NCBI GenBank assembly: GCA_005808665.1 | Contig: SYLG01000150.1 | Span: 1-36,165 of the forward strand | Reading direction: 5' to 3' | Origin: Planctomycetia bacterium | GTDB lineage: Bacteria > Planctomycetota > Planctomycetia > Gemmatales > Gemmataceae | Length of the DNA: 36,165 nt | Shown: positions 18,738-31,477 of the stretch, in pieces | Layout of the letters: every line of letters begins with the position of its first letter | Numbering within the stretch: position 1 is the stretch's first letter | Program-made: the position numbers and the translations under genes | Notes under the pieces: generated by a model | Database searches by the model: none | What the model was told of the DNA's origin: nothing | The model's input: the letters and a program-made list of their open reading frames with translations, nothing else

Positions 18738-18924
18738 GTCTCCATAATTTGTTAAGGGTGATTTTTGGGTATCTTGAAATCCTCCGACAATCCCCACCGA
18801 AAACATTACTTGTTAGCACGGGTCCAAAAATCCGTTTGAAGGAATACCCCATTTGTAAGTCCTTATTTGGCAAGGTTTCCCCTGATTTTGGCTTTCAATC
18901 ACCAATAGTTTGGCACCTCTTTCC

Positions 18925-19935
18925 ATGACAGATAATCTTCAAAACGCATCTTGGTTAATCACAGGAGCATCCGGGTCTTTTGGCAAAAAAGCCTTGGAAA
19001 TTCTGCTCACGGAATACTCCCCGAGGCGCATAGTCATCTTTAGCCGGGATGAATTAAAACAATTTGAAATGCGTGAGCAATTTCCCGAGCGCAAATATTC
19101 CTGTTTGCGCTACTTTCTGGGGGATGTTCGCGATGCGGATCGCCTCCGGAGGGCCTTTGATGGAGTGGAATATGTCATTCATGCGGCTGCTTTGAAGCAA
19201 GTACCTGCCGCCGAATACAACCCCATTGAAGCAATCAAAACCAATGTCCATGGTGCCATTAATGTCATTGACGCCGCCATCGACAGGGGTATTAAAAAAG
19301 TGATCGCCCTCTCCACAGACAAAGCAGCCAATCCGGTAAACCTTTATGGTGCAACAAAGCTTTGTTCAGACAAACTTTTCATTAATGCCAATAATTATTC
19401 AGGAACTCATCCAGCCCGTTTTTCGGTGGTCCGTTACGGCAATGTGATGGGATCCAGGGGAAGTGTGATCCCATTCTTTACCGGTCGCCGCAAAACAGGT
19501 GTCCTTCCCATCACTGATCCCCGCATGACCCGCTTTTGGATCACCCTTGATCAGGGAGTCCGTTTTGTCCTCAACTCCTTTGTTCGGATGCATGGCGGCG
19601 AACTCTATGTTCCCAAAATCCCCTCCATGAAAATTACAGATTTGGCCACCGCTATGGCACCCGAATGCAAGCAGGAAATCGTAGGAATCCGCCCGGGTGA
19701 AAAACTCCACGAAATCATGATTACAGAAGACGATTCCCGCCATACCCGCGAAATGGATGACCATTATGCCATCCTTCCGGAACCATCTGAAGGGGCCCAT
19801 GATCATCACCCCATGGCCAATACCGGAGTGGCTTGCCCGGAAGGGTTTCGCTTTTCCAGCGACACCAATAAACAATGGATTTCAGGTCCTGAACTCATGG
19901 AAATGCTCAAAAAACACAAGATGATCCCCGTTTGA
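18925..19935 (+). CDS. pseB: UDP-N-acetylglucosamine 4,6-dehydratase (inverting), PseB
   Basis: First enzyme of CMP-pseudaminic acid synthesis, turning UDP-GlcNAc into the 4-keto-6-deoxy-L-arabino sugar. The SDR Rossmann motif is TGASGSFGKK near the N terminus, followed by VIFSRDELKQFEMR, a PseB/FlaA1-type signature. The catalytic part reads HAAALKQVPAAEYNP, ALSTDKAANPVNLYGATK and VVRYGNVMGSRGSVIPFF. PGEKLHEIMITEDD near the C terminus is also typical. The frame is open from a TTG at 18910, but the ATG at 18925 gives a normal N terminus and 336 residues. The stop overlaps the TTG start of pseC (TTGA), fitting consecutive steps of one pathway. Confidence 0.94.
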   Translation: MTDNLQNASWLITGASGSFGKKALEILLTEYSPRRIVIFSRDELKQFEMREQFPERKYSCLRYFLGDVRDADRLRRAFDGVEYVIHAAALKQVPAAEYNPIEAIKTNVHGAINVIDAAIDRGIKKVIALSTDKAANPVNLYGATKLCSDKLFINANNYSGTHPARFSVVRYGNVMGSRGSVIPFFTGRRKTGVLPITDPRMTRFWITLDQGVRFVLNSFVRMHGGELYVPKIPSMKITDLATAMAPECKQEIVGIRPGEKLHEIMITEDDSRHTREMDDHYAILPEPSEGAHDHHPMANTGVACPEGFRFSSDTNKQWISGPELMEMLKKHKMIPV

Positions 19936-21149
19936 TTGCCACCCTTCCCTACGGCCGTCAGTCCATCTCCGAAGAAGATATCTCCGCCGTGGTGGATTGT
20001 TTACGATCCCCTTTTTTAACGGTTGGTCCTCGGATCGAGGCCTTTGAGGATGCGTTTGCAAAAAAGGTGGGAGCAAAACATGCCATCGCGGTTTGCAACG
20101 CCACCGCCGCTTTGCATCTTGCGATGCTCGTTGCTGAAATCCGTCCAGGGGACAGGGTCGTTACCAGCCCCATTACCTTCTTGGCATCCGCCAATTGTGC
20201 GGCATATGTTGGAGCGACACCTGATTTTGTCGATGTCGATCCCGTTTCCCTTACCATTGATCCCATGGTTTTGGAATCCTCTTGGAAACAGGATACCAAG
20301 GCAGTCGTTTCGGTGGATTACGCAGGCCAGTCTGCGGATATGCCTACCCTTGCCGAAATTGCCCGAAAACAAGGCGCCATCATTATCGAAGACGCTTGCC
20401 ACGCCGTTGGGGGCGCCTTTGAACACAACGGACAAATCTACAAAATGGGGGGCCATCCGTGGGCCGACATGACCACCTTTTCTTTCCATCCCGTTAAAAC
20501 CATGACCACAGGCGAGGGGGGTATGCTCGTTACGGACAACGATGTCTATGCCAGAAAGGCTAGACTCCTTCGTAGCCACGGCATGGAACGAAATCACTCG
20601 ACATTTGAATCGCCCGAGGCATGCTTCCCAACCGCAGAAAAAGGACCATGGTTCTATGAAATGCAAGGATTGGGCTACAATTACCGGTTAACCGAAATCC
20701 AGGCCGCTTTGGGAAATTCCCAATTAAACCGCCTGGATTCGTTTGTCGAACGCCGGCGGGAAATCGTGGCCGCCTACAACGCTGCTTTTATAAATGTTCC
20801 TTGGGTCCAGATTCCCGCCCTGAGGAACCCTGCCGACCAATCCTTGACTTCCTGGCACCTCTATTCCCCCCGATTGGATTTTGCTGCTTTGGGCAAAACC
20901 CGAACCAAAGTAATGGATGAATTACGCCAAAGGGGAGTGGGAACACAGGTCCTTTATATCCCAGTCCATCTCCAGCCTTGGTATCGAAAGTCATTTGGAT
21001 ATGGCCAAGGAAAATGCCCCAATGCGGAAGCGGCCTATGCTGGGTTGTTAAGCCTTCCCCTTTTTCCGGAGATGACCCAAGTGGATGTTGATCGAGTCAT
21101 TCAGTCCGTTAGGATCTTGGATCAAAAACCAAATCTTTCATGCGCCTAA
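19932..21149 (+). CDS. pseC: UDP-4-amino-4,6-dideoxy-N-acetyl-altrosamine transaminase, PseC
   Basis: PLP-dependent aminotransferase of the DegT/DnrJ/EryC1 family, aminating the PseB product at C4. It begins at TTG 19932 with IATLPYGRQSISEEDI, the usual PseC opening. The catalytic lysine is K189 in FSFHPVKTMTTGEGG. The PLP pocket shows in NATAALHLA, SPITFLASANCA and IIEDACHAVGG. The length of 405 residues is slightly above the usual 370-390. It overlaps pseB by 4 bp and its own end is overlapped by 10 bp by the next nucleotidyltransferase gene, so that TA-like gene is transcribed and possibly translated together with it. Confidence 0.94.
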   Translation: MIATLPYGRQSISEEDISAVVDCLRSPFLTVGPRIEAFEDAFAKKVGAKHAIAVCNATAALHLAMLVAEIRPGDRVVTSPITFLASANCAAYVGATPDFVDVDPVSLTIDPMVLESSWKQDTKAVVSVDYAGQSADMPTLAEIARKQGAIIIEDACHAVGGAFEHNGQIYKMGGHPWADMTTFSFHPVKTMTTGEGGMLVTDNDVYARKARLLRSHGMERNHSTFESPEACFPTAEKGPWFYEMQGLGYNYRLTEIQAALGNSQLNRLDSFVERRREIVAAYNAAFINVPWVQIPALRNPADQSLTSWHLYSPRLDFAALGKTRTKVMDELRQRGVGTQVLYIPVHLQPWYRKSFGYGQGKCPNAEAAYAGLLSLPLFPEMTQVDVDRVIQSVRILDQKPNLSCA

Positions 21150-22799: not shown

Positions 22800-23665
22800 T
22801 GATGTTAAGGTTGGAAACAGATTTTGCTCTGGGTACCGTTCAACTTGGTATCCCCTATGGACGCAATAAGGGTGGGTCACTTTGTTCAATTGCGGAAGCC
22901 GAGAACATTTTTGAAACCGCTTGGCAATTTGGCGTTCGAGCATTTGATACCGCCTCTGGATACGGTTGTGCCATGGAACGGCTTGCCAATTGGTTACAGG
23001 CAACCGATCGGATGAACCAGGCAAAAGTGGTTAACAAAGTGTCCCCTTTGGATTGCCTTTCCAAAGGGGCTTTGGATAAAGCGTGTAATCCCTTTCGTAA
23101 TGCTGCCCAATTGGACCTTTTGGTCCATGGCTTTGTGGGTGAAGCCGATTGGACAGAATTTCAGAATCGGGCAGGGGAAAGGGGGGCCAACCCGGGACTG
23201 AGCGTTTACACGGCGGATGAGCTTCTCCATGCCAATGCCTTGGGGGCAAGCCTTGTCCAAGCCCCTGCAAATGCCCTTGATTTTCGCCAACTAAATGCCG
23301 CTAAGGTAGCTCAACAACGAACCGATTTTCGGTCCGTTTTCCTTCAAGGACTTTTGCTTGATTCTCCTGAAATGGCCGAATCCCGATTTCCCGGGTCAGG
23401 GATTTTCCCCGAAGCAGTTGAATCCGCTTCAAAGGCTTTGGGAATTTCCCCCCAAGCAGCTCTAATCGGGGCCGTCCTTAATGCGAAAAAACCTTTGGAC
23501 CGATTGGTAATTGGTGTGGATACCCCAAATGAAATGGCTGTTTGGAAGGAAGCCCTTGCGGTTTCACCCAACCAATCCAATCGATTTATTACCGCTGTTG
23601 CCAATGAATTGAAAACTGCTCCTAGCGATAGCTTGCTAGATCCAAGAACTTGGCCTACCAAATGA
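22799..23665 (+). CDS. Aldo/keto reductase family protein
   Basis: NAD(P)H-dependent oxidoreductase of the AKR fold. The start at 22799 (MMLRLETDF) overlaps the methyltransferase stop by one base; ATG 22802 is the alternative. The early strand FALGTVQLGIPYG, then FDTASGYG with the catalytic Asp and Tyr, a lysine in VVNKVSP and a histidine in DLLVHGF give the AKR tetrad. At 288 residues it is a little short but complete, ending with the cofactor-side segment LDRLVIGVDTPNE. AKR genes of this type are frequent in nonulosonic acid clusters, though their step is not settled. Its stop overlaps the next ATG (ATGA). Confidence 0.82.
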   Translation: MMLRLETDFALGTVQLGIPYGRNKGGSLCSIAEAENIFETAWQFGVRAFDTASGYGCAMERLANWLQATDRMNQAKVVNKVSPLDCLSKGALDKACNPFRNAAQLDLLVHGFVGEADWTEFQNRAGERGANPGLSVYTADELLHANALGASLVQAPANALDFRQLNAAKVAQQRTDFRSVFLQGLLLDSPEMAESRFPGSGIFPEAVESASKALGISPQAALIGAVLNAKKPLDRLVIGVDTPNEMAVWKEALAVSPNQSNRFITAVANELKTAPSDSLLDPRTWPTK

Positions 23666-25695
23666 CAAAGTCGTGCACAATTGCAATTATCCAGGCTCGG
23701 ATGGGATCGACCCGTTTGCCCGGCAAGGTAATGCGCCAGGTTCAAGGTGTTCCGCTGATTCAAACCTTGATACAGCGACTCCAATTGGCAAAGTCCATTG
23801 ACCAGATTGTTTTAGCGACCTCCACAGAACCAGTAAATGATTCATTGGAGGTTTTTGTTTCCGGGCTTGGGATCCCCGTATTCCGGGGAAGTGAAACGGA
23901 TGTTTTGGACCGCTATTATCAGGCAGCAAAATCCTATCAACCGAAAACGGTGATTCGGATTACTGGTGACTGTCCCTTGATAGATCCCAAATTGGTTGAC
24001 CTTGTGGTTGAAGAGTTTAACCACCAAAAGGTTGACTACCTTTCGACAGCAAACGATTGTTTTCCGGATGGTTTGGATACCGAGGTGTTCAAGTTTAGTG
24101 CCTTGGAGGAGGCTCACAATAAAGCAACAACCCCCCATGAGAGAGAGCATGTCACCCCGTTTCTTAAAAATTCCACCCACATAAAAAGGGGGGAATATCG
24201 GGAAAAGGAAAACCATTCCAATCAACGCTGGACTGTGGATGAACCTGAAGATTTTGAAGTAGTTCGAAATATCCTCAACCATTTTGCCCACCGAATCGAT
24301 TTTACCTGGCAAGAAGTGCTAGGGCTTTATCACAAATCCCCTGATTTATTTGAGGCTAATCGCAAAATTTTGCGAAATGATGGGGCGACCATAGGGACCG
24401 GTCAAAAACTTTGGAAAAGGGCAAAAAGGGTTATCCCCGGGGGCAACATGCTCCTTTCCAAACGGGCCGAAATGTTCCTTCCAGACCGTTGGCCTGCTTA
24501 TTTTAGCCGTGCCAAAGGTTGTCAGGTTTGGGACTTGGATGGTAATCCATTCACTGACATGTGCATTATGGGGATAGGCACAAACACTTTGGGTTATGGC
24601 AATCCTGTGGTGGACGAGGCGGTCCAAGCCACCGTTTCGGCAGGCAACATGTCCACTTTCAATTGCCCAGAAGAAGTCTATTTGGCGGAAAAATTGGTTG
24701 AACTCCATCCTTGGGCGGACATGGTGCGTTTGGCGCGCTCCGGTGGCGAGGCCAATGCAATCGCTACCCGGATTGCCCGTGCCGCATCGGGTAAAGACGG
24801 GGTGGCCATTTGCGGCTACCACGGGTGGCATGATTGGTATTTGGCGGCAAATTTGGGGGATGAAGAAAACCTGGCAGGGCATCTCCTAGCAGGGTTGGAA
24901 CCCAACGGTGTCCCCAAGGCTTTGCGGGGTACAGTCCATCCTTTCCTTTACAACCAATTGGACCAACTCGACAAAATTGTTAATCAACATGACATTGGCG
25001 TTATTCAAATGGAGGTGTCCCGTAATCTTGGCCCTGATGGGAACTTTCTTCAAAAAGTTCGACAATTAGCCACGAAAAATGGAATTGTCCTTGTTTTTGA
25101 CGAATGCACTTCTGGATTTCGACAAACCTACGGAGGATTGCATAAGCTTTATTGTGTTGAACCGGATATGGCCATGTTTGGCAAGGCGCTTGGGAATGGA
25201 TATGCAATAACAGCTGTTATTGGTAGGCGCGAGGTCATGGAGGCCGCCCAAACAAGCTTCATTAGCAGCACTTTTTGGACCGAACGGATTGGTCCCTCGG
25301 CCGCATTGGCATCTCTTAAAGTGATGAACCAAGAGCGTTCATGGGAGCAGATTACTGAAATGGGTAATTACATCACCGCTCTTTGGAAGCAAATGGCACA
25401 AAGGCACGGATTGTCCATCACTACCAATGGCCTCCCTGCATTAACCGGATTTACCTTTGTTAGCCCCAATTCCCTTGCCTACAAGACTTTGATCACCCAG
25501 GAAATGCTCAAGAAAGGATACCTTGCTTCGACTTCTGTTTATGTGTGCACGGAACACACAAAAGAAGTGGTGGATCAGTACATTGAAAATCTTGACCCTA
25601 TATGGGCAAAAATAAAAGAGTGCGAAGAGGGCTTGGCGGTTGAATCCCTTCTCGAAGGACCCATTTGCCACGCTGGATTCAAAAGGCTTAATTAG
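23662..25695 (+). CDS. pseF: Fusion: SpsF/PseF-type cytidylyltransferase plus class III aminotransferase
   Basis: A 677-residue two-domain enzyme. Residues about 5-235 form a nucleotidyltransferase: IIQARMGSTRLPGKVM (NTP binding), FRGSETDVLDRYYQAA and IRITGDCPLIDP with the metal-binding Asp. This is the SpsF type that activates nonulosonic acids with CMP, here the best candidate for the last Pse step. Residues about 245-670 are an aminotransferase of the glutamate-1-semialdehyde class: RVIPGGNMLLSKR, GGEANAIATRIARA, GYHGWHDWYL, FDECTSGFR and the PLP lysine K508 in MFGKALGNGYAI. The ATG at 23662 overlaps the preceding stop; a TTG 12 bp upstream is less likely. This fused form is known from glycan loci. 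The substrate of the aminotransferase half is unknown. Confidence 0.88.
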   Translation: MTKSCTIAIIQARMGSTRLPGKVMRQVQGVPLIQTLIQRLQLAKSIDQIVLATSTEPVNDSLEVFVSGLGIPVFRGSETDVLDRYYQAAKSYQPKTVIRITGDCPLIDPKLVDLVVEEFNHQKVDYLSTANDCFPDGLDTEVFKFSALEEAHNKATTPHEREHVTPFLKNSTHIKRGEYREKENHSNQRWTVDEPEDFEVVRNILNHFAHRIDFTWQEVLGLYHKSPDLFEANRKILRNDGATIGTGQKLWKRAKRVIPGGNMLLSKRAEMFLPDRWPAYFSRAKGCQVWDLDGNPFTDMCIMGIGTNTLGYGNPVVDEAVQATVSAGNMSTFNCPEEVYLAEKLVELHPWADMVRLARSGGEANAIATRIARAASGKDGVAICGYHGWHDWYLAANLGDEENLAGHLLAGLEPNGVPKALRGTVHPFLYNQLDQLDKIVNQHDIGVIQMEVSRNLGPDGNFLQKVRQLATKNGIVLVFDECTSGFRQTYGGLHKLYCVEPDMAMFGKALGNGYAITAVIGRREVMEAAQTSFISSTFWTERIGPSAALASLKVMNQERSWEQITEMGNYITALWKQMAQRHGLSITTNGLPALTGFTFVSPNSLAYKTLITQEMLKKGYLASTSVYVCTEHTKEVVDQYIENLDPIWAKIKECEEGLAVESLLEGPICHAGFKRLN

Positions 25696-25697
25696 TC

Positions 25698-27362
25698 TTG
25701 ACCCAATCCATTTTTTTCCGAACTGATGCATCCCTACAAATAGGCACGGGCCATGTCATGAGGTGCCTTACCTTGGCAACCGAACTGAAAAGCCGAGGGT
25801 GTGTAATCTCCTTTGTTTGCAGAAACCATCCAGGCAATTTGAACGACCTGATTCGAAAAAACGGCTTTGAGGTTTTAGACCTTTCCCAACCCACCCAAGA
25901 AAATCGGAAAATTTTAGAAAAAGACTCATCAAGGGGCGAATATGCCCAATGGCTGGGGGTTACCCAGGTTCAGGACGCTAGAGAAACCTTATCAGTACTT
26001 GGAGAAAAAAAACCTGATTGGCTTATCGTCGACCATTATGTTTTGGACAAATCTTGGGAAACCGCCCTTCGACCAAATGTTAAAAAGGTTATGGTAATCG
26101 ATGACCTAGCCGATCGGGAACACGATTGTGATTTGTTGTTGGATCAAAATCTCGTTGCCAACCGAAACACCCGTTACCAAGATTTGTTGCCCACCCAATG
26201 TGGTCGGTTGCTGGGCCCTGAATTCGCATTGTTGCAATCCCAATATTCGGAATTTTGTCCCTGCGTGCCGCCACGGGAAGGTCGGGTGCGTCGGGTCTTA
26301 GTCTACTTTGGCGGAGCGGATACCGATAACCTGACAGGCAGGACCATTGCCGCCTTCCTTTCACTCGGACGATCGGATATTTCCCTGGATGTGGTTATAA
26401 ACCCTTCAAGTCTTCATGCGGCAACTATTCGGTGGCAAATAAGCGTCCAGAAACAAATTGCCCTGCACGAAGAATTACCCAGCTTGGCTCCATTAATGGT
26501 GAAGGCGGATTTGGCTATCGGTGCAGGCGGGGCAACTTCTTGGGAGCGTTGTTGCTTGGGATTACCCTCCTTGGTCGTCACCCTGGCTGAAAATCAGATA
26601 CCCATTGCAGAGGAACTTCACCACCAAGGTTGCATACGCTGGTTGGGTCACAAGGATAAAGTCAGTGAAGCTGACATTGCAAAAAACTTGAAAAGTGTCA
26701 TTGAGGCCGATCTCCAACCTGATTGGTCAGCTAATTGTCGGCAAAAGGTGGATGGTTTTGGTACCAAAAGAGTGGCCGACATTTTGTTGCTCAACGCACA
26801 AACGAAACTCCAAGCTCGACCGGTTCGATTGGAGGATGAAGCTTTGATATTGAAATGGGCCAATGATCCGTTTGCCCGCCAAAATGCTTTTTCATCGGAA
26901 GCCATTGCCCTATCCACTCATCGCACATGGTTTCGCAGTAAGTTACGCGATTTTGAAAATAATCGGTTTTTTATTGTGGAAACCGAGGACGAATTTCCAA
27001 TTGGACAGGTGCGTTTTGAACGGGTTAATGATGAATGGGAAATTGACTATTCCCTCGAGCAATGCGTTCGAGGCAGGAAATTGGGTAGAAAGTTGTTACA
27101 AACTGCCATGGTTGCCTTTCGGGAAAGCACAAATGGGGTTATCCTTCTTGCCCAAGTCAAAAAATCCAATACCGCCTCCTGTCACATTTTTGAAGAATTA
27201 GGTTTTGAATCAGGATTTGAATCAGGAAATGGGGGGGGGGAGGAAGTTGTCTGTCGTTATTCTCTCCGACCAGGAAAGCTGGATCAACCCTTTTCTCCCC
27301 GATTTGATATTAACCTGGCTGAGGAAAGGATTCCGGGTTGGATGGGCCCACAACCACAATGA
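25698..27362 (+). CDS. pseG: Fusion of PseG (UDP-sugar hydrolase) and PseH (N-acetyltransferase)
   Basis: A 554-residue bifunctional enzyme of CMP-Pse synthesis. Residues 1 to about 365 are PseG, the GT-B-fold hydrolase removing UDP: FRTDASLQIGTGHVMRCL with the catalytic His19, VDHYVLD, and the nucleotide-site stretch LAIGAGGATSWERCCLGLPS. From about 372 a GNAT domain follows (ARPVRLEDEALILKWAND, GQVRFERVNDEWEIDYSL, GRKLGRKLLQTAM, FEELGF), matching PseH, which acetylates the 4-amino group. In the pathway PseH acts just before PseG. TTG 25698 is the start. The last GNAT strand (EEVVCRYSL) is encoded right after a ten-G run; beyond it some 30 residues look like read-through into the overlapping next gene. 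Confidence 0.9.
   Translation: MTQSIFFRTDASLQIGTGHVMRCLTLATELKSRGCVISFVCRNHPGNLNDLIRKNGFEVLDLSQPTQENRKILEKDSSRGEYAQWLGVTQVQDARETLSVLGEKKPDWLIVDHYVLDKSWETALRPNVKKVMVIDDLADREHDCDLLLDQNLVANRNTRYQDLLPTQCGRLLGPEFALLQSQYSEFCPCVPPREGRVRRVLVYFGGADTDNLTGRTIAAFLSLGRSDISLDVVINPSSLHAATIRWQISVQKQIALHEELPSLAPLMVKADLAIGAGGATSWERCCLGLPSLVVTLAENQIPIAEELHHQGCIRWLGHKDKVSEADIAKNLKSVIEADLQPDWSANCRQKVDGFGTKRVADILLLNAQTKLQARPVRLEDEALILKWANDPFARQNAFSSEAIALSTHRTWFRSKLRDFENNRFFIVETEDEFPIGQVRFERVNDEWEIDYSLEQCVRGRKLGRKLLQTAMVAFRESTNGVILLAQVKKSNTASCHIFEELGFESGFESGNGGGEEVVCRYSLRPGKLDQPFSPRFDINLAEERIPGWMGPQPQ
27204..27240 (+). repeat. 12-bp tandem duplication followed by a G10 run
   Basis: TTTGAATCAGGA stands twice in tandem (27204-27215 and 27216-27227), encoding the repeated FESG in PseH. 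Four bases on, 27231-27240 is ten consecutive G residues. The run is inside the PseG-PseH frame and, in another frame, directly after a possible ATG of the formyltransferase gene (27229). Loss of one G would put the pseG-pseH frame into the formyltransferase frame; gain of one would lead to an early stop. Confidence 0.9.
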
Positions 27363-27876
27363 TTTAAATGGTGGCGACCTATGTTTTTATTTGGGATATG
27401 GGCGAATCGTTGGTCAACAGATTCGGAATAGGTTTCGCAATAATCTGGTTGTCCATGAAAGTGCTCTTCCCAAAGGCCGGGGCTGGTCACCAACCAGTTG
27501 GCTGATACGGGAAGGTGCGTCCTGCATACCGGTTACTTTATTGGAAGCTGTTGAGGAAGTTGATTCAGGATCAATCTATTTGCAAGAATGGATTGAGTTG
27601 AAAGGGTATGAATTGGTTTCAGAATGACGTGAACTTTTATTTGACTCTACCCGACGACTTTGCCAGAGTTTTGTAGAACAATACCCGGACATTCAGGAAC
27701 AAGGTAAACCCCAGAATGGTATTCCCTCTTTTTATCCTCGGCTTTTTGCGAAGGATAGTAGGCTTGACCCTACTAAAAGCCTTGCAGAACAATTCAATTT
27801 ACTGCGCATTGTGGACAATCATAAATATCCAGCATTTTTTGATATGGATGGCAAACGATTTTTATTGAAAAATTGA
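27229..27876 (+). pseudogene. Formyltransferase-like gene with an in-frame TGA
   Basis: In a different frame from pseG-pseH, and overlapping it by 134 bp, lies a formyltransferase-family gene. Possible starts are ATG 27229, just before the G run, or TTG 27247. It reads LSVVILSDQESWINPFLP, then NNLVVHESALPKGRGWSP and VTLLEAVEEVDSGSIYLQ, typical of sugar formyltransferases in Pse/Leg loci. The frame stops at TGA 27625-27627 but continues to TGA 27874-27876 with the family's C terminus: SRLDPTKSLAEQFNLLRIVD, then HKYPAFFDMDGKRFLLKN. A single change (for example TGG or CGA to TGA) would explain it. The truncated product lacks about a third of the protein. A sequencing error is the alternative. 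Confidence 0.8.
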
Positions 27877-27938
27877 ATTACAAATTGTGGATTAACAATA
27901 AGCCACTGCTGTGATTGAAAAAACGAAAAAAATCAAGT

Positions 27939-28625
27939 ATGGTTAAAAGATTTTTAATTATAGCGACTCCTCATTGTAGAAATGATAATACGGAATTTAG
28001 ATTGCGTGAAAAATTTCCCGATTTTAATATTTTAAGATTTAAAAGCCCTGAAGAGCTTGTCCCTGAAATATTAGAAAAGATATCCCCAGAGTGGATATTT
28101 TTTCCTCATTGGTCGTGGATCATTCCTAAATCTGTCCACGAAAAATACCCATGCGTCATTTTCCATATGACTGATGTACCGTATGGAAGGGGTGGTAGCC
28201 CTCTTCAAAACCTGATTGTTAGAGGACATAAATCTACGGTCATTTCCGCCCTAAAGTGCCAGGAGGAATTGGATGGGGGGCCAGTTTATTTGAAAAAACC
28301 ATTATCACTCGAGGGAACGGCTGAGGAGATTCTTCAAAGGGCTTCAAATATTATTACAGAAATGATTAAGGAAATAGTCCTTAATCCTAAACCACCTTCT
28401 CCACAAATCGGTCCGATTACGAAATTTATCCGTCGCAAACCAAGTGATGGAAACTTTGCTGCTTTGAATACACCGGAAGGTGTATTTGATTATATTCGAA
28501 TGTTGGATGGTGATGGATATCCTCCTGCATTTTTAGAATCTGGCAATATGTTTGTTGAATTTAAAAAAGCACTAAGGGTTGGTGATACTGTGGAAGCAAT
28601 TGCAGTAATTAAAGTAAAGAAGTGA
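27939..28625 (+). CDS. Second formyltransferase-like protein
   Basis: Intact formyltransferase-family protein of 228 residues from ATG 27939 (a TTG at 27915 would add eight residues). Key blocks are WIFFPHWSWIIP, FHMTDVPYGRGGSPLQNLI with the catalytic-type histidine, and a CQEELDGGPVYLKKPL segment with the conserved Asp; the C terminus has DGDGYPPAFLE, the usual end motif. Such enzymes use N10-formyltetrahydrofolate to formylate an amino sugar. Being next to a broken relative, it may be the working copy or act on another amino group. The gene is AT-rich compared with pseG-pseH. Its stop overlaps the GTG of the deacetylase gene (GTGA). Confidence 0.82.
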   Translation: MVKRFLIIATPHCRNDNTEFRLREKFPDFNILRFKSPEELVPEILEKISPEWIFFPHWSWIIPKSVHEKYPCVIFHMTDVPYGRGGSPLQNLIVRGHKSTVISALKCQEELDGGPVYLKKPLSLEGTAEEILQRASNIITEMIKEIVLNPKPPSPQIGPITKFIRRKPSDGNFAALNTPEGVFDYIRMLDGDGYPPAFLESGNMFVEFKKALRVGDTVEAIAVIKVKK

Positions 28626-29305
28626 AAAAATCTCCTGTTTTAGTGGTAGCTGCCCACCCCGATGATGAGGTATTGGGGTGTGGTGGAACAATTGCAAAAT
28701 TTGCCCTTGAGGGCCGACCGGTTCATGTTTTGTTGCTTGCGGATGGTGAATCCTCTAGAGAATCTAACATAGGATTCGATGATTTGATTCAGAACCGAAA
28801 TGCTTCAGCCGAGAAAGCGGCTGACATTTTGGGGATCTCAAGCCTGAAAATTTGCGAATTTCCTGATAACCGACTCGATTCCATAAATGTCTTTGATGTG
28901 GTAAAAATAATTGAAGCATCCATTCGTGATACATTGCCGACTACGGTTTTTACTCACCACTATGGCGATGTCAATGTGGATCACCGGGTTGTCCACGAGG
29001 CTGTTCTTGCGGCGTGCAGGCCACAACCTGGTTTTTGTGTGAAAGAACTGTTTTTCTTTGAGATACCTTCCTCAACCGAATGGAGGCCTCCTAATTCAGC
29101 TACACCATTTGTCCCAAACCTATTTGTTAATATAGACATTTTCTTGGATACCAAAAAAAAAGCTTTGTTAGCTTATGCTTCTGAAATGAGAGATTTCCCC
29201 CATGCCCGGTCAATCAAGGCGGTTGAGGCACTTGCCCGGTGGCGAGGAGCATGCGTTGGTAAAAATGCAGCTGAGGCTTTCATGGTTGGCAGGATAATAA
29301 ACTGA
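28622..29305 (+). CDS. PIG-L/LmbE family N-deacetylase
   Basis: Zinc-dependent deacetylase of 227 residues, starting at GTG 28622. The metal-binding motif AHPDDEVLGCGG lies at residues 11-22, with H12, D14 and D15, and the second part HHYGDVNVDHRVVHEAV supplies the third metal ligand. This family removes acetyl groups from N-acetylated sugars. Coupled to the formyltransferase gene by a 4-bp overlap, it suggests that an N-acetyl is removed and replaced by N-formyl on the nonulosonic acid or its precursor. That exchange is inference from order and families. Confidence 0.88.
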   Translation: MKKSPVLVVAAHPDDEVLGCGGTIAKFALEGRPVHVLLLADGESSRESNIGFDDLIQNRNASAEKAADILGISSLKICEFPDNRLDSINVFDVVKIIEASIRDTLPTTVFTHHYGDVNVDHRVVHEAVLAACRPQPGFCVKELFFFEIPSSTEWRPPNSATPFVPNLFVNIDIFLDTKKKALLAYASEMRDFPHARSIKAVEALARWRGACVGKNAAEAFMVGRIIN

Positions 29306-30418: not shown

Positions 30419-31477
30419 ATGTTTAAATTGGGAAATCTTGAGATAGGGTTGCACCACCCACCCTTCATCATTGCCGAAATGTCAGGCAATCACAACCAAT
30501 CCCTGGAACGGGCTTTGGCCATTGTTGAAGCTGCCGCTATGTCCGGGGCACACGCCCTGAAGTTGCAAACTTATACGGCGGATACCATGACATTGGATGT
30601 GCGTGGAGGGGAATTTGAAATCCAGGATCCGAATAGCCTTTGGGCCGGCAAAAATCTCCACGATCTTTACAAACAAGCGTATACTCCTTGGGAATGGCAC
30701 AAACCTCTTTTTGACCGTGCCAAAGAATTGGGGATGTTAGCATTCAGTAGTCCCTTTGATGAAACGGCGGTGGATTTCTTGGAAACCCTCCATGTCCCTG
30801 CCTATAAAATCGCTTCTTTTGAAAATAACCACATTCCTCTCATAAAAAAAGTTGCTTCGACAGGCAAACCAATCATTATGTCCACGGGCATGGCAACCAT
30901 TGCCGAACTGGATGAAGCGGTAACTGCGGCTAGGCAATCAGGCTGCCACGACCTTACTCTCCTTAAATGTACTAGCACCTATCCAGCAACTCCTGCCAAT
31001 TCGAATATCCTCACCATTCCGCACATGAAACAGTTGTTTGGATGTGAGGTGGGACTTTCCGACCACACCATGGGGGTAGGGGTTGCGGTGGCGGCGGTGG
31101 CCCATGGTGCTTCTATAATTGAAAAACACTTTACCCTCTCACGTGCCGAAGGGGGTGTGGACAGTGCTTTTTCCATGGAACACCATGAATTGAAATTGTT
31201 GGTGGAAGAAACCAGGAGGGCTTGGGAATCCCTGGGCCAAATCACCTATGGACCCACCGAAGCAGAAAAAAAATCCTTAATATTCCGCCGCTCCATTTAT
31301 GTGGCTAAAGACATCCAAGCAGGGGAAATACTAACAAAGGACAATATAAAAATTGTAAGACCTGGTTTGGGCCTACCCCCCAAATATTATTATGAAATTT
31401 TAAAGATATATGCTCGAAACTTTCTTAAAAAAGGTACACCTATAACTTGGAAATTAATTGGGAGACAAAAAATTTAA
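30419..31477 (+). CDS. pseI: Pseudaminic acid synthase, PseI
   Basis: Condenses phosphoenolpyruvate with the 6-deoxy-altrose derivative made by PseG, giving pseudaminic acid. It has 352 residues and the NeuB/PseI TIM-barrel motifs: FIIAEMSGNHN, KLQTYTADTMT, FSSPFDETAVDFL, YKIASFE, IMSTGMAT, CTSTYPA, SDHTMG and EKHFTLSR. The C-terminal antifreeze-like (SAF) domain is at about 290-352 (FRRSIYVAKDIQAGEIL). The CTSTYPA and TYTADT forms favour PseI over sialic or legionaminic acid synthases. The ATG at 30419 has no strong ribosome binding site. The last 100 bp or so turn clearly AT-rich, in line with everything that follows. Confidence 0.93.
   Translation: MFKLGNLEIGLHHPPFIIAEMSGNHNQSLERALAIVEAAAMSGAHALKLQTYTADTMTLDVRGGEFEIQDPNSLWAGKNLHDLYKQAYTPWEWHKPLFDRAKELGMLAFSSPFDETAVDFLETLHVPAYKIASFENNHIPLIKKVASTGKPIIMSTGMATIAELDEAVTAARQSGCHDLTLLKCTSTYPATPANSNILTIPHMKQLFGCEVGLSDHTMGVGVAVAAVAHGASIIEKHFTLSRAEGGVDSAFSMEHHELKLLVEETRRAWESLGQITYGPTEAEKKSLIFRRSIYVAKDIQAGEILTKDNIKIVRPGLGLPPKYYYEILKIYARNFLKKGTPITWKLIGRQKI

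Follow-up and report, generated by a model that had tools for sequence, protein, structure and literature searches.

A G10 tract at an acetyltransferase-formyltransferase boundary as a candidate fusion switch in a planctomycete pseudaminic-acid locus

The pseudaminic-acid locus and its G10 tract

The window, by which we mean the whole 36,165-nucleotide stretch of DNA that was analysed, is an entire contig of a 4.48-Mb draft genome. A pseudaminic-acid locus spans 18.9-31.5 kb and comprises PseB, PseC, a cytidylyltransferase-aminotransferase, PseG-PseH, the formyltransferase-like FmtA and FmtB, a PIG-L deacetylase and PseI. A search for 16S in the window's own draft genome found none, and elsewhere in the genome surface proteins start with an LE-LE-R-P motif, which we take to be the one familiar from Gemmata-type planctomycetes. 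The features of the locus, all on the forward strand, are as follows.

18910..19935, +: PseB (UDP-GlcNAc 4,6-dehydratase, inverting); TIGR03589 above cut-off
19932..21149, +: PseC aminotransferase; TIGR03588 above cut-off
23650..25695, +: cytidylyltransferase fused to a class-III aminotransferase (Pfam); adjoins PseG in many pse loci
25698..27362, +: PseG-PseH fusion ORF (PseG plus PseH-like GNAT), 554 aa, ending in the overlap with the FmtA frame; TIGR03590, Pfam GNAT
27204-27227, +: two tandem TTTGAATCAGGA units (27204-27215 and 27216-27227) encoding FESG-FESG, frame-neutral
27231-27240, +: G10 tract, proposed slippage site at the PseH/FmtA boundary, encoding Gly-Gly-Gly; from the sequence and recomputed frames
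27229..27627, +: FmtA (sugar N-formyltransferase-like) as now read, from ATG 27229 or TTG 27247; PF00551 on the read-through protein
27625..27627, +: in-frame stop (TGA) that cuts FmtA short
27628..27876, +: remainder of the FmtA reading frame, still open and conserved to the same degree as before the TGA
27915..28625, +: FmtB, second formyltransferase-like gene; Pfam Formyl_trans_C_2 and Formyl_trans_N
28622..29305, +: PIG-L family deacetylase accompanying FmtB; Pfam PF02585 and co-occurrence
30419..31477, +: PseI/NeuB-type synthase; Pfam NeuB and SAF

The two halves of the PseG-PseH ORF differ in how well they match their family models, as the PseG domain scores 302 bits against a TIGR03590 cut-off of 153.55 and the PseH domain falls below its TIGR03585 cut-off (44 versus 93.1 bits), which the PseH of a gammaproteobacterial locus (L228) passes. 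The window acetyltransferase nevertheless appears PseH-like by position and fold, the predicted GNAT fold having Helicobacter pylori PseH (4ri1) among its matches. In the AlphaFold model of this domain a strand occupies residues 152-157, directly after the tract-encoded Gly-Gly-Gly, and the tail beyond residue 166 is disordered, in agreement with an earlier note on this DNA, which held that the G10 frame retains the last PseH strand. This last strand and the first strand of FmtA are encoded by the same DNA in different frames.

The reading frames at the tract were recomputed for each run length. With G10 the ORF is the 554-aa PseG-PseH, which ends at 27362 as the earlier note had described; the FmtA frame opens at ATG 27229 in another frame and overlaps it by the 134 bp given there, and the two tandem units and ten G residues also lie where they had been placed. 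G9 or G12 gives a fusion with the FmtA frame (642-643 aa), and G8 or G11 leads to a stop at 535-536 aa, the 536-aa product of G11 bearing out the expectation that an eleventh G would end translation soon after. The three frames at the tract yield three products, and in a run long enough to slip the gain or loss of a single base here changes what is made. An alternative FmtA start, TTG 27247, has GGGGGAGG directly upstream and fits the conserved FmtA N-terminus better. The adjacent repeat, for which TRF reports 2.8 copies (27195-27227), was considered as a switch in its own right and rejected, as a 12-bp unit preserves the reading frame whatever the copy number.

Within the window the G10 tract is the sole G or C run longer than 7, and G8 matches show no excess over dinucleotide shuffles. 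The genome as a whole carries 11 G or C runs of at least 10, about 7 of them in coding sequence, and these include housekeeping-type genes, two of which look like a glutamate synthase and a TypA-type GTPase (names read from translations). As the runs extend to such ordinary genes, poly-G enrichment across the genome was rejected as an explanation in itself. Since the window does not exceed its shuffles and the genome has 11 such runs, the length of the G10 tract is by itself unremarkable; its position is remarkable.

FmtA and its premature stop

The read-through FmtA of the window scores 36.4 bits against PF00551 (cut-off 26.1) and is 48% identical to the FmtA of another bacterium (L063), the model of which has a sugar-formyltransferase fold and matches ArnA, WbkC and VioF. 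The family profile likewise matches sugar formyltransferases and PseJ. Like PseJ (PDB 6ci2, 6ci4), a formyltransferase of the Pse pathway that the profile matches at E 2e-9, FmtA lies in a pseudaminic-acid locus; it matches 1zgh and ArnA better than PseJ, and the likeness of the two is at the level of the profile match. We know of no tract or fusion in PseJ. In more than 10 loci FmtA stands in the PseH slot (PseG-FmtA-PseI), and from this occupancy we infer that FmtA probably adds formyl to the same amino group to which PseH adds acetyl. Of the expected catalytic residues Asn-x-His...Asp, His67 and Asp103 (L063 numbering) are invariant in the FmtA alignment and an Asn two residues before the His is not seen; as the Asn of the N-x-H motif is not conserved, the formylation chemistry is putative. 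A natural FmtA-PseH fusion in the reverse order, with no homopolymer run, occurs at L135:5085-6302.

In the window, a TGA at 27625-27627 interrupts FmtA in frame; beyond it the frame is open to 27876, and these 82-83 or so codons resemble the relatives. At the TGA column Leu is found in the three nearest relatives and Trp in another three (L120, L133 and L134), so that a single base change could have created the stop. A general decay of the gene was considered and dropped, as the window FmtA differs at a single one of 27 conserved columns, is no outlier and is alike in its identity to relatives before and after the TGA. Because the family residues are otherwise kept, the stop is probably recent, and a recent nonsense mutation is one of three readings, the others being readthrough and a sequence error. 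Recoding of UGA was judged unlikely, as UGA also ends PseG-PseH and other genes and the column is Leu or Trp, never Cys.

Taken as a nonsense codon, which it probably is, the TGA would leave a truncated formyltransferase in either phase. Judged by the L063 model, the Rossmann core, conserved His and Asp included, is predicted to survive the truncation, and the long helix and everything C-terminal to the core would be missing. As a sugar N-formyltransferase gene FmtA is incomplete in the window, closed by the TGA at 27625, and the formyl arm is likely non-functional in this genome. With this stop, a switch in the window would have no complete formyltransferase to turn on and is probably not productive now. 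The earlier note had proposed that G9 would produce a PseG-PseH-formyltransferase fusion; the joining of the frames stands (642 aa), but the TGA had been overlooked and the fusion would lack the last ~83 residues.

PseH-to-FmtA junctions and a candidate N-acyl switch

Junctions were drawn from the loci around PseG in named genomes and from FmtA searches in three groups of genomes, and were delimited by the ends of tblastn matches with 60-nt margins. A G or C run of 9-10 is present at all four PseH-to-FmtA junctions found (two of them in MAGs and each known from one assembly, such that each tract length may be off by one), versus a run of at least 8 at 1 of 365 other neighbouring gene pairs of pse loci (Fisher p 6.6e-9). 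Because the window had suggested this test, p was also computed without it (4.9e-7).

The comparison with related genomes that the earlier note had proposed gave, at the same junction, G9 in genome G722, C10 in L063 and C9 in genome G193. Apart from the window these are unrelated bacteria, and the junction is fused in two of them. In G722 (locus L236), a planctomycete, a single 733-aa PseG-PseH-FmtA ORF spans the run and is the very product predicted for G9 in the window; this genome also encodes part of a hydrazine-dehydrogenase-like protein, consistent with Planctomycetota. In G193 (locus L228), a gammaproteobacterium, the fused product is a 406-aa PseH-FmtA. The window and L063 are split. 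Both states are thus found, in different species, and at every locus a one- or two-base change converts fused to split or the reverse. The two planctomycetes carry poly-G and the other two genomes poly-C, which makes a single inherited run not the simple explanation. None of the three frames disrupts PseH in L063, where the stop overlaps the FmtA start, so that FmtA may be made there in every phase; as PseH is complete before the run in both L063 and L228, only FmtA would be switched in those loci.

Other searches for the arrangement returned nothing comparable. Among the searched genomes of the window's order no other had a PseH-FmtA pair; an exact-sequence search of IMG/VR for the tract flank gave no match, as did a search for the PseH-FmtA fusion protein; and on plasmids PseH and formyltransferase matches were found apart, never paired.

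From position, frames and recurrence, we think it fairly likely that slippage at the G10 tract operates a phase-variable fusion switch between a PseH-type N-acetyltransferase and the FmtA N-formyltransferase of the pseudaminic-acid locus. Strand slippage would add bases to the tract or remove them, and its length would decide whether the ribosome terminates at the end of PseH or also translates FmtA, yielding a single PseG-PseH-FmtA protein, with a consequent change in the N-acyl group on a surface sugar. The window tract would now be in its split phase, in which the G10 frame is predicted to complete the last PseH strand. The G9 fusion would replace that strand, and acetylation and formylation may therefore be alternatives in the window lineage. 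What we infer is that slippage takes place in living populations, that the enzymes have these activities and that the sugar changes; the proposal predicts 7-N-acetyl versus 7-N-formyl pseudaminic acid, which can be checked by mass spectrometry. Of the phase-variable switch that the earlier note had suspected, the placement of a G or C run gains support from its recurrence at four of four related junctions, both fused and split, but in the window itself FmtA is truncated in either phase.

Fused and split proteins could also arise from one genotype with no change in the DNA, by slippage of RNA polymerase or the ribosome on the run, which we regard as unlikely here. Runs of 9-10 are within the slippage-capable range, and at Mycobacterium bovis/BCG frdB-frdC a variable poly-G ends one gene and allows in-frame fusion to the next, as proposed for the window, with three isoforms that the authors attribute to transcriptional slippage while doubting selection (PMC7835394); unlike the window pair, these are respiratory enzyme subunits. 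A dedicated recoding site would however be expected to hold one direction, whereas the fusion frame is reached in the window and in L063 by shifts that differ in sign, and in two other genomes the fusion is already present in the DNA.

Somewhat less probable again is a neutral origin, in which an interdomain linker tolerates any length, a homopolymer has drifted in and the nonsense codon marks a locus losing function. The 11 runs of at least 10 in the genome, several in ordinary genes, the TGA in FmtA and the 12-bp duplication, indicative of a linker tolerant of insertions, all fit such drift, yet tolerance alone does not position runs at four of four junctions versus 1 of 365, and the C10 of L063 is the only G or C run of at least 9 in a 2.8-Mb genome.

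It is very improbable that the G run serves instead as an extended Shine-Dalgarno sequence for a start at TTG 27247 and takes no part in changing frames: GGGGGAGG lies immediately upstream of this start, in frame with the conserved FmtA N-terminus, but the GGAGG core is just 3 nt from the TTG, the runs of L063 and L228 are C and cannot serve in this way, and L228 and L236 have no FmtA start beside the tract. We give as little credence to the tract lengths being assembly errors, with every locus constitutively in one state, since, error-prone as homopolymers of 9-10 are in some sequencing methods and single as the assemblies are, finding a tract at every junction is independent of its exact length and the fused ORFs otherwise run unbroken for more than 400 codons.

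Switching of surface sugars by poly-G tracts is known mainly in host-associated bacteria. If the fusion switch proposed here, which recurs in several lineages outside that group, is real, environmental bacteria would do so too, planctomycetes among them, and the variation may serve against phages or grazers. In the literature searched we found no paper on phase variation in Gemmataceae and no relevant one in anammox bacteria.

Poly-G fusion of neighbouring genes has precedent elsewhere (PMC2823697, PMC7835394). In Helicobacter canadensis the C-termini of HCAN_0660/0661 (and of the formyltransferase HCAN_0643) are subject to poly-G switching, for which read data gave ranges of length (PMC2823697), and as proposed for the window a poly-G near the 3' end of a gene sets neighbouring proteins separate or fused. 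In contrast to PseH and a formyltransferase, that pair consists of hypothetical proteins, in an epsilonproteobacterium, and length variation was observed there, whereas the window is known from one assembly. The Campylobacter jejuni Cj1295 and other flagellar glycan genes share with the proposed switch a homopolymer tract that changes pseudaminic-acid modification (PMC3068675), but Cj1295 is a classic single-gene on/off arrangement with the tract inside the coding sequence and no fusion. What seems to be new here, as read from the sequences, is a candidate fusion switch at an acetyltransferase-formyltransferase boundary that recurs with different bases in different lineages.

FmtB and other runs near pseudaminic-acid loci

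FmtB and the PIG-L deacetylase co-occur in the window (27915-29305) and at L063, L065, L073, L075, L096, L240, L256 and L257, and the pair may exchange an N-acetyl group for N-formyl. At the boundary of FmtB with a GNAT acetyltransferase, a G8 is present in both G722 and G193 (L256:10716-10723 and L257:7055-7062) in opposite phases: in G193 FmtB is joined in frame to GNAT, and in G722 FmtB is closed and one extra G would join them. With one fused and one split in two unrelated genomes, this boundary is a putative second fusion switch.

A wider proposal, which we hold only tentatively, is that of a recurrent N-acyl selector, in which slippage would pick a complete acetyltransferase or a fused formyltransferase and so make acetylated and formylated pseudaminic acid alternatives. 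Such a selector would have arisen more than once, by poly-G and by poly-C, with FmtB-GNAT as a second switch, in free-living planctomycetes and proteobacteria.

Elsewhere, G193 has four G or C runs of at least 9 in 2.7 Mb, of which the pse locus accounts for two within a 5-kb stretch, and 358 kb of G722 sampled outside the locus held no run of at least 9. Near the pse locus of G722, a G9 lies in an FkbM-type methyltransferase gene that one-base changes truncate (L256:16250-16258), and near another a G9 lies in a 638-aa ORF with no Pfam match that is likewise truncated by such changes (L257:10273-10281). In genome G000, three G runs of 9-11 fall within 2.3 kb (contig C17:6323-8570, L189), two of them in or beside apparent coding sequences. 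In a Methylococcaceae MAG, a methyltransferase-like ORF downstream of a pse cluster has a G10 some 40 codons from its start (L080:7772-7781), and in a small genome a G9-T-G7 lies inside FmtA itself (L231:1617-1633), encoding extra glycines in a classic on/off arrangement.
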